In this document: one piece after another, positions 7,903 to 19,009 of the stretch | How the letters are laid out: each line of letters starts with the position of its first letter | How positions within the stretch are numbered: position 1 is the first letter of the stretch | Virus record (IMG/VR): IMGVR_UViG_3300022200_001499 | Span: 1-21,559 of that record | DNA: 21,559 nucleotides | Direction: 5' to 3' (one strand) | Source: a virus | Translations under genes and position numbers: made by a program | Notes under the pieces: generated by a model | What the model was told of the DNA's origin: nothing | Databases searched by the model: none | Seen by the model: only the letters and a program-made list of their open reading frames with translations

Positions 7903-8073
7903 ATGTATAAAGAAATTAAATCAACAATTCCTGAGATACCAGAAAACTGTGTAATCCGTCTTTCAGACAATGCAGTTATACCATTTGACCCAGCTAACAC
8001 AGATTACCAAGAGTTCGTACAGTGGTGCGAACAGGGCAACACACCAGAACCAGCAGACGAGGTAACACCATGA
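7903..8073 (+). CDS. Small fibre-associated protein (56 aa)
   Basis: The start was placed at ATG 7903, with GGAG seven bases upstream, and not at an earlier in-frame ATG inside the previous gene. The protein begins MYKEIKSTIPEIPENCVIRL and has the segment 'AVIPFDPANTDYQEFVQW' plus 'GNTPEPADE' near the end. From memory this segment recurs in small proteins or tails of fibres in aquatic phages. It starts one base after the upstream stop and overlaps the next gene by ATGA, so it is translationally coupled to both neighbours. A role as fibre chaperone or companion is inferred from context and is not proven. Confidence 0.75.
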   Translation: MYKEIKSTIPEIPENCVIRLSDNAVIPFDPANTDYQEFVQWCEQGNTPEPADEVTP

Positions 8074-8531
8074 GTTCAAAGATAAACGCAATATCAACTG
8101 GAGTTGGCGGGCTTGCTACAAGTGCTGACGCTAGTGGGATATTAGAGATACAAACAAATGACACAACAGCTATTACGGTTGATGGCAGTCAGGTAGTCAG
8201 CTTTGATAATAACTTTGGAACTGTTGCTGGATTGCCATCATTTCAATGTCGTGCTTGGGTAAACTTTAACGGTACAGGTACAGTAGCTATTCGTGGTAGT
8301 GGTAATGTGACAAGTATTACTGATAACGGTACAGGAAATTATACGGTTAACTTTGCCACGGCGATGCCAGATGCAAATTATTCCATTGCAGGAAGTGCGT
8401 TAGGTGATATTCCACAGTTAATCATGTCGCCTTACATAACAGTCTCTACTACTCAATGCCGAGTCATTATTAGCAACACTACTCAGGTTGCGGACAATGC
8501 AATGGTAAGTGTCTCCGTCTTCAGCAACTAA
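8070..8531 (+). CDS. Tail fibre tip-like protein, paralogue 1
   Basis: The start is taken at ATG 8070, overlapping the previous stop as ATGA, giving 153 residues. The N-terminal half (SSKINAISTGVGGLATSADA, then ILEIQTNDTTAITVDGSQ) is a fibre-type region often joined to chaperone or tip domains. The C-terminal half carries 'CRAWVNFNGTGTVAI...SITDNGTGNYTVNF', a beta-rich module common in distal tail proteins. The same module occurs in the protein at 9338-9751, with different flanking residues after it. The last about 40 residues diverge between the two, as expected for surface-contacting tips. Function as a receptor-binding or fibre-tip subunit is inferred. Confidence 0.8.
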   Translation: MSSKINAISTGVGGLATSADASGILEIQTNDTTAITVDGSQVVSFDNNFGTVAGLPSFQCRAWVNFNGTGTVAIRGSGNVTSITDNGTGNYTVNFATAMPDANYSIAGSALGDIPQLIMSPYITVSTTQCRVIISNTTQVADNAMVSVSVFSN

Positions 8532-8549
8532 TTTTTTAAGGAGTCTAAC

Positions 8550-8738
8550 ATGGACAACAAACGTGTGATTTACAAAACTGATGACAATGGGGTCGCTGTC
8601 ATCGTTCCTGCACCCGGCGCTACACAAGAGCAGGTGCTAAAGGCTGTACCAGCAGGTAAGCCCTACAAGATTGTAGATGTCGCAGATATTCCTGAAGACA
8701 GAACATTCCGTAACGCATGGGAATATATTAATGCTTGA
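8550..8738 (+). CDS. Fibre companion protein, N-terminal half (split by HNH gene?)
   Basis: This 62-residue protein (start supported by AAGGAG) begins MDNKRVIYKTDDNGVAVIVP and ends 'IPEDRTFRNAWEYINA'. From memory, phage proteins with 'DRTFRNAW' normally continue directly into a segment like '(V/I)T(V/I)(N/D)LDKAKEI...R..R...L..LDV'. That is exactly how the separate protein at 9111-9338 begins. The two lie in the same reading phase (both starts are at multiples of three) with an HNH gene between them. So this is probably the front part of a former single gene of about 135 codons. Whether the half is functional is unknown. Confidence 0.75.
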   Translation: MDNKRVIYKTDDNGVAVIVPAPGATQEQVLKAVPAGKPYKIVDVADIPEDRTFRNAWEYINA

Positions 8739-9111
8739 TAGATTTTTGAGCAAAACAATACCAGAGCCAAATTCTGGTTGCCTATTATGGACTGCTCATG
8801 TTAGCAGAGATGGATATGGAAGATTTGGAATTGGTAGAGTTCCACATGAAGCTCATAGAGTATCCTACAAATTATTTAAAGGTGAAATACCAAAAGGATT
8901 GTGTGTAGACCATATATGCAAAGTTAGAAGTTGTGTTAATCCAAACCATTTAAGATTACTTACAAGAGAAGATAATTCAAGATTGCAAGATAATTTTAAT
9001 GCAAAGAAAACGCACTGCAAATGTGGCAATGAATATACATTAAGAAACAACAAGCGAATTTGCAAGCCATGCCAAGCATCGGCTTCTAAAAAATATAGGG
9101 AGAAATTATAA
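8731..9111 (+). CDS. HNH homing-type endonuclease
   Basis: ATG 8731 was chosen because it overlaps the upstream stop and gives the N-terminus usual for this family (MLDRFLSKTIPEPNSGCLLW). The 126-residue protein has the HNH_3-type core: GCLLWTAHVSRDGYGRFGIG, then AHRVSYKLFKGEIPKGLCVDHICKV with Asp60-His61, then 'SCVNPNHLRLLT' with Asn72-His73. A C-terminal zinc ribbon follows (Cys96, Cys98, Cys111, Cys114). Such enzymes nick or cut intronless alleles and spread between phages. It lies between two small frames that look like one broken gene. TAATG occurs at both edges (8729-8733 and 9109-9113). I see no clear group I intron around it, so it is probably free-standing. Confidence 0.9.
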   Translation: MLDRFLSKTIPEPNSGCLLWTAHVSRDGYGRFGIGRVPHEAHRVSYKLFKGEIPKGLCVDHICKVRSCVNPNHLRLLTREDNSRLQDNFNAKKTHCKCGNEYTLRNNKRICKPCQASASKKYREKL

Positions 9112-9338
9112 TGATTACTATCAACTTAGACAAAGCTAAGAAGATTACACATGAAGCTCGTAGAGCTAAACGTGCTGAAGAGTTTGCCCCATTAGATGTG
9201 AAGGCTACTATTCCTAGTGAAGCCACTGCTGCTGAAGAAGCACGTCAGGCTGTCCGTGATAAGTATGCTGCCATTCAATCTAACATTGACAACGCACAAG
9301 GTGTTGATGAGCTTAAATTTGTATTGGAGAACATGTAA
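9111..9338 (+). CDS. Fibre companion protein, C-terminal half (split by HNH gene?)
   Basis: This 75-residue protein, MITINLDKAKKITHEARRAK onward, is a charged all-helical sequence with 'PLDVKAT' and a late 'QSNIDNAQGVDELKFVLEN'. In similar phage proteins these elements form the C-terminal part of a fibre-associated or fibre-assembly protein, following a 'DRTFRNAW' segment. Here that segment ends the separate gene at 8550-8738. It has its own ribosome site (GGGAGA about eight bases before ATG), so it can still be translated. Its start overlaps the HNH stop by one base and its stop overlaps the start of the next gene. Function is unknown beyond the fibre context. Confidence 0.75.
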   Translation: MITINLDKAKKITHEARRAKRAEEFAPLDVKATIPSEATAAEEARQAVRDKYAAIQSNIDNAQGVDELKFVLENM

Positions 9339-9751
9339 TGGCTGACATCGTTCTAGCAGGAAATACAAGTGGAAGTGTAACAATTGCTGCACCTGATGTG
9401 GCTGGAACGACTACATTAACTTTACCAGCTTCTAGTGGAACTGTGCTTGATGATGCTAGTGTTGGTGTTTGTAGGGCTTGGGTGAATTTCAATGGAACTG
9501 GGACAGTTGCTATCATGGCTGCATTTAATGTTAGCTCTATTACAGATAACGGTACTGGTTTTTACACAGTAAACATTGCTACTGCATTGGCAGATTCTAA
9601 TTATTCAGTTGTAGGTACTAGCAATCAAGGTGGAGCGATATATATAGTGCGTACTGCAATAGCAACAAAAACAACAACGGCTTGCGATTTATCGCACAAC
9701 TCTACTACAGCTGCCGTAGACGGTATTATATCTGTAGCCATTTTCAGATAA
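9338..9751 (+). CDS. Tail fibre tip-like protein, paralogue 2
   Basis: The 137 residues start with ADIVLAGNTSGSVTIAAPDV and 'GTTTLTLPASSGTV', a fibre segment very common in phage distal tail proteins. Then comes the 'CRAWVNFNGTGTVAI...SITDNGTGFYTVNIATAL' module shared with the protein at 8070-8531. The N-terminal segments of the two are unrelated, so the shared module looks like an exchangeable cassette. The end (GIISVAIFR) matches the paralogue's VSVSVFSN in style. Start ATG overlaps the upstream stop by one base. The role as a fibre-tip subunit is inferred. Confidence 0.8.
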   Translation: MADIVLAGNTSGSVTIAAPDVAGTTTLTLPASSGTVLDDASVGVCRAWVNFNGTGTVAIMAAFNVSSITDNGTGFYTVNIATALADSNYSVVGTSNQGGAIYIVRTAIATKTTTACDLSHNSTTAAVDGIISVAIFR

Positions 9752-18495: not shown

Positions 18496-18544
18496 ATCCC
18501 TTAAAATGCAAATTAGAGGCATGTATGTAATAAGGAGACCCAAC

Positions 18545-19009
18545 ATGAAAGTATGTTCTACATGTAATGAATTAAAACAACTCAAAGCTTTCTTCAAACG
18601 CAACGATTCGTTAGACGGTTACGAAGGCAATTGTAAAGAATGTCGAATGGAAAAAAAGAGAGCTAACCCAAACTTTAAAGAGACTACTAGGAAAGCTGCT
18701 ATCAAACACGAGAAGAAGCGTAAAGGTACGCGGTGGGGTTATAGTCTTTATCGTAACTACGGTATTACAGAGGATGATTACTGGGAAATGTATGAAGCAC
18801 AGGAAGGATGTTGTGCTATCTGTCGTAGACCAACTCAAGGTGACCACTACAACCGATTAGTCGTTGACCACAATCACGACACAAAAGAGGTACGTGGTTT
18901 GCTATGTAATAGCTGTAACGTAGTCCTAGGACACTCAGGCGACAACGCTGAAGTACTTGAACGCGCTGCTCAATACCTAAAGGATAAAGGTTCTTATGAC
19001 CGAGAATGA
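18545..19009 (+). CDS. Endonuclease VII-like HNH nuclease
   Basis: ATG 18545 is chosen because AAGGAG lies seven bases upstream; a longer reading from 18506 has no ribosome site. The 154-residue protein has an N-terminal zinc finger (Cys4, Cys7, Cys30, Cys33), a basic linker, 'YGITEDDYWEMYEAQEGCCAIC' (72-93), and the His-Me finger core 'VVDHNHDT..VRGLLCNSCN' with Asp108-His109, His111, Cys121 and Cys124. This is the recombination endonuclease VII type, known in T4 for resolving branched DNA before packaging. T7 has a different resolvase (gene 3). Here it could debranch concatemers, or be a homing-like invader between the terminase genes. It overlaps the large terminase by 14 bases. Confidence 0.88.
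   Translation: MKVCSTCNELKQLKAFFKRNDSLDGYEGNCKECRMEKKRANPNFKETTRKAAIKHEKKRKGTRWGYSLYRNYGITEDDYWEMYEAQEGCCAICRRPTQGDHYNRLVVDHNHDTKEVRGLLCNSCNVVLGHSGDNAEVLERAAQYLKDKGSYDRE

Follow-up and report, generated by a model that had tools for sequence, protein, structure and literature searches.

The tail-fibre locus of this T7-like marine podophage contains an HNH endonuclease gene that is very probably a free-standing, intron-less homing endonuclease gene, inserted into a start/stop overlap that already existed between two small genes, termed A and B here. The analysed DNA, called the window, is a virus record of 21,559 bases, whose terminase is 55.6% identical to that of Lauvirus lau218 and ∼50% identical to those of Roseobacter CRP phages. 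A second contig (L012) matches the window identically across the 6186 bases compared, which speaks weakly against an assembly error, as L012 possibly stems from the same sample.

Genes A (8550..8738), HNH (8731..9111) and B (9111..9338) follow each other head to tail on the plus strand of the fibre locus, each overlapping the next. Gene A encodes a small fibre-locus protein of 62 aa with a conserved C-terminal DRTFRNAW; the protein ends in ...DRTFRNAWEYINA, and its final two codons and stop come from the insert. The HNH protein has 126 aa if translated from position 8731, a start set by fit to homologues, and would have 144 aa if the in-frame ATG at 8677 were used. Gene B encodes a predicted three-helix protein of 75 aa that begins with MITINLDKAKKI, and A and B together amount to 137 residues. 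The HNH gene shares 8 nt with A (ATGCTTGA, 8731–8738, plus strand) and 1 nt with B, within the TAATG at 9109..9113 (plus strand) that combines the HNH stop and the B start. A preliminary description of this DNA had given the same coordinates and protein ends, had noted TAATG at both borders and had stated that the HNH gene overlaps or abuts both neighbours, all of it correctly. The A–HNH–B block is itself flanked by a pair of fibre-tip-like phrog_11355 paralogues (8070–8531 and 9338–9751) with 71% DNA identity over 147 nt.

To place this arrangement among its relatives, homologues of A, B and HNH were drawn from phage records, IMG/VR and bacterial genome contigs. Each distinct A..B stretch was counted as a junction if A and B lay on the same strand within 1500 nt; loci such as L009, L133, L166 and L378 fall outside this definition, while L107, L144 and L385 were counted despite partial A matches. 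Among the 147 junctions, a sample enriched in HNH alleles through the HNH scans, A and B overlap in 112, lie adjacent in 13 (0–59 nt), are separated by this HNH gene in 10 and by another insert in 8, and are fused in 4. Two touching genes without any insert are thus present in 125 of the 147 junctions, and 104 of the 112 overlaps are the 4-nt ATGA. Overlaps of 1, 4, 8, 10, 13 and 14 nt occur beside the gaps of 0–59 nt, in phages that include Vibrio phages and cyanophages. As a rule A and B are two genes, with or without the nuclease.

This distribution bears on the proposal in the preliminary description that the HNH gene had split a single gene, the halves of which might now act as a two-piece protein. 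Its premise, that the two segments are continuous in similar phage proteins, is true for some of them: single-chain homologues of the joined A–B sequence were found at four junctions (L005, L382, L383 and L385, each with A and B in one open frame) and, outside the 147, in S-CBP42_0013 of a T7-like cyanophage, a protein of 160 aa encoded between tail fibre and lysozyme genes, in which an A domain (conditional E 1.3e-12) and a B domain (conditional E 8.5e-25) are recognised. A gene in pieces has also been reported for a phage ribonucleotide reductase. However, A and B are two genes without an insert in the 125 junctions above, in varied junction forms and in distant phages, and even in L093, the nearest empty allele on the B side, whose B is 93% identical to that of the window. 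The HNH clade occupies just 10 of 147 junctions, or 3 of 160 loci of the A and B scans (2 of 80 in the A scan, the best 80 of 297 loci, and 1 of 80 in the B scan, the best 80 of 209). The single chain was seen in distant relatives only, and not in close relatives without the nuclease. The preliminary description had named, as the observation that would speak against a split, that the two halves are invariably found as separate genes with no nuclease in between; this is true of most relatives, though not of all. Of the proposal, the insertion stands, as empty alleles exist, whereas the split of one gene by this HNH gene is highly unlikely in this lineage.

Insertion of the HNH gene into a finished A/B overlap is also what the borders point to. 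The typical empty junction reads TGGGAG TAT TCA GC ATGA TT, with the A stop within the B start, while that of L093, which has a TAATG overlap, reads TAATGATT. Filled and empty alleles occur at one homologous site. Homology between them ends on the left ∼5 nt before the HNH ATG and restarts on the right, in most alleles, at the HNH stop codon, which is the position of the former A stop. The preliminary description had suggested that relatives with an empty site would locate the insertion, and blastn of the window flanks against empty loci bounds the insert at approximately 8727..9108 (plus strand), with left homology stopping at 8725–8726 and right homology beginning at 9109.

The cassette opens with (A/G)ATGCTTGA in nine of ten distinct filled alleles, including the window (8731..8738), and with ATGTTTGA in L178. 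ATGCTTGA is read as Met-Leu in the HNH frame and as Asn-Ala-stop in the A frame of the window, so that the HNH start also terminates A: the last two codons of A are replaced by the cassette, which supplies the stop. The right border tracks the resident context, being TAATG in the window, at the place where L093 has its A stop and B start, and GCATGA in most others. On the left the border varies (GATG, AATG), and on the right it is mostly GCATG or AAATG. Since TAATG stands at both borders in only one of the ten distinct filled alleles, that of the window, it is not the mark of insertion that it had been suggested to be.

The fit extends to stretches that resemble ribosome sites. On the plus strand, AAGGAG (8538..8543) lies ahead of A with an anti-SD duplex energy of −8.7 kcal/mol, TGGGAA (8718..8723), formed by Trp-Glu codons of A, precedes HNH with −4.2 kcal/mol, and AGGGAG (9097..9102) in the final HNH codons precedes B with −9.0 kcal/mol; the earlier remark that each half has its own ribosome site agrees with the first and the last of these. 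In empty alleles the Trp-Glu stretch precedes B instead. All 104 empty alleles with a four-base overlap have a stretch before B whose pairing energy with the 16S tail is −4 kcal/mol or lower, compared with 20% of random 15-mers (n = 3000; unmatched for composition), and TGGGA from the Trp-Glu codons is present in 89 of these 104 and in all ten filled alleles. In the filled alleles this stretch precedes HNH at −4 kcal/mol or below in 10/10, and the fresh stretch for B in the HNH tail attains −4 kcal/mol or better in 9/10, the tenth giving −3.3. The HNH gene therefore appears, from these pairing energies, to adopt the ribosome site that was formerly that of B and to supply B with a new one; translation would then start from these stretches.

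The HNH protein itself matches phrog_826 (E 8.6e-38) and Pfam HNH_3 (E 5.8e-16), and the residues H61, N70 and H73 are invariant in 9/9 aligned HNH relatives, as expected for the intact catalytic domain of a free-standing HNH homing endonuclease. A search of its profile against PDB sequences gave nothing at E ≤ 0.01. An intron-borne HNH gene was considered and rejected, since no Rfam intron was matched in 8300–9600; A and B have separate frames on either side, and no host protein is interrupted. With dN/dS of about 0.07–0.2 in four close pairs, the gene is, as estimated from these substitutions, under purifying selection.

One clade of HNH genes is restricted to this junction. Eleven contigs (two of which share the same A..B sequence) encode an HNH with 66% or more identity to that of the window, and every one has it in the A/B junction, with A on the left and B on the right, while none of the remaining 69 loci of the HNH scan (39–59% identical) has A or B nearby. 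Such a pattern also weighs on the alternative that the HNH protein serves the phage, in packaging or in general DNA cutting, and was placed by ordinary gene shuffling rather than by homing. There are HNH proteins that act in packaging, and purifying selection would suit a useful protein. But nearly all relatives that have this junction lack the gene, and a single clade at a single site is scattered across the A and B trees, so we regard a phage-serving function as quite unlikely.

Comparisons between filled alleles are compatible with a homing endonuclease gene that spreads by homing and is in part inherited by descent. The window and L172 have HNH proteins that are 86% identical, while A is 55% and B, which is of another type, 32% identical; besides one fibre segment, their DNA similarity is confined to a block of 483 nt, comprising HNH with ∼64 and ∼37 nt of flank. 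Protein-level conservation of the A 3′ end may alone account for the flank similarity. Seven pairs have HNH proteins with 85% identity or more. In 5/7 the HNH identity exceeds that of either flanking gene, whereas a flank is the more similar part in L173–L302 (HNH 86%, A 92%, B 72%) and L178–L296 (HNH 85%, A 92%, B 90%). On the A tree and on the B tree, which have 60–75 columns and are poorly resolved, a minimum of 8 changes is needed to explain HNH presence, and because this is fewer than the mean of 9.8 in shuffled data, some inheritance by descent is suggested.

We propose that in mixed infections the HNH protein would cut or nick A+B+ genomes that lack its gene, close to the conserved A end, and that repair templated by the HNH-bearing genome would copy the gene across. 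Gene A would sacrifice just its final two codons, with ATGCTTGA of the cassette as its new stop. HNH would then be translated from the former ribosome site of B, and B would restart from the site in the HNH end. The HNH gene appears to be a selfish element of the ordinary kind whose fit is unusually neat. It provides a well-bounded pair of filled and empty sites for a candidate marine phage homing endonuclease, and it suggests a route into a tight operon, in which the ribosome site of one gene is borrowed and that of the next is supplied. A note of caution also follows: where a protein known elsewhere as a single chain is found as two adjacent pieces, the nuclease between them is not necessarily what split it.

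Phage T4 encodes the free-standing HNH endonucleases MobA–E, of which MobE lies between nrdA and nrdB; the mobE AUG overlaps the nrdA stop (UAAUGA), which is suggestive of translational coupling, and five of 12 free-standing endonuclease genes of T4 overlap the upstream gene (PMC2988022). Like mobE, the HNH gene of the window is an intron-less gene between conserved genes, but it overlaps its neighbours at both ends, it appears to use a ribosome site that formerly served the next gene, and other, unrelated genes flank it. Activity and inheritance were measured for MobE, whereas the HNH of the window is known from its sequence, and the T4 endonucleases cut at a distance of hundreds of bases or more (PMC2988022). 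The HNH genes of lactococcal Skunavirus likewise form clusters tied to single insertion places, and different HNHs may share a place; they are I-HmuI-like, PacI-like or GVE2-like, while that of the window is of the phrog_826/HNH_3 type, and marker exclusion was tested in the Skunavirus system only (PMC12724721). Free-standing HNH genes between conserved phage genes are thus already known, and the one described here adds another; a search of titles and abstract openings returned no paper recognisable as treating this A/B junction. The mobE case in the Aeh1 ribonucleotide reductase is similar in that two pieces, elsewhere a single chain, have an HNH gene between them. There the insertion itself is said, in work attributed to Friedrich and co-workers in 2007, to have broken nrdA. 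Unlike Aeh1 nrdA, A and B occur as two genes without the insert.

The A/B junction is an insertion hot spot that has received two unrelated HNH families, fibre-like genes and a small ORF. A phrog_374 nuclease, the family being followed at the best 80 of 164 loci, occupies it in L149 (2387–3004; E 2.8e-62) and L033 (2509–3105; E 3.6e-54), the two being 35% identical to each other; the nuclease of L149 is also present on a second contig (L150). These genes begin with GTG inside the A end, and that of L149 finishes in an ATGA overlap with B. In L112, L003, L010, L130, L140 and L025 fibre-like genes and one 44-aa frame lie between A and B.

Repeated arrivals of this kind, together with the fused A–B forms of other lineages, would also suit an ancient fission of A and B by an insert that has since been lost, the present HNH having moved into the old scar afterwards. 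We judge this unlikely. No scar of a lost HNH was seen among the empty junctions inspected in a non-systematic look, and fusion cannot be told from fission by rooting, because the trees have only 60–75 columns; when fused and separate proteins were aligned jointly, the B rows had very low identities, and the alignment was dropped. Gene fusion through loss of a stop would be equally simple: in L011, L031, L079 and L124 only one stop codon separates A from B within a common frame, possibly a step between fused and separate forms.

More tentatively, the A/B overlap that the homing endonuclease gene entered may be a conserved docking module, in which the Trp-Glu codons of A double as the ribosome site of whichever gene comes next. 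Any cassette with an ATG at this place, its own terminal ribosome site and a stop/start overlap could enter without harm to the operon, and at least two unrelated HNH families would have arrived in this way. The recombination driven by this HNH might also help to shuffle two B types among phages. The two types are EEFAPLD..IPSEA and REPLLAAQDVAFQRALE (e.g. window 9111–9338 and L172 2005–2223, respectively), and similar A and HNH genes are found in free combination with either, as though the junction were a recombination point.

The products of A and B may act as chaperones in fibre assembly. No family scored above its cut-off for either in profile searches, and A had no match in Pfam or PHROG. 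Phage_tail_APC (PF16778) was hit only by relatives of B and by one fused protein, at E 0.0013–0.13 and below its 26.6-bit cut-off, and the tail fiber assembly family phrog_4912 at E 0.0022 by one B relative; A and B were therefore not assigned to a tail-fibre assembly chaperone family. The best match of the B profile among PDB sequences, and the single one, had E 0.52. Structure models reached pLDDT 93.2 for B, with three helices, and 83.5 for A, and Foldseek of both against the PDB gave nothing at E ≤ 0.001. In BFVD the B model matched DUF4376 proteins insignificantly (E about 1), but it matched the 160-aa S-CBP42 protein at E 7.4e-4. Elsewhere in the window, an endonuclease VII type nuclease gene at 18506–19009 (PF02945, E 7.5e-26; phrog_307, E 4.3e-39) directly precedes the terminase large subunit gene, with an overlap of 14 nt.
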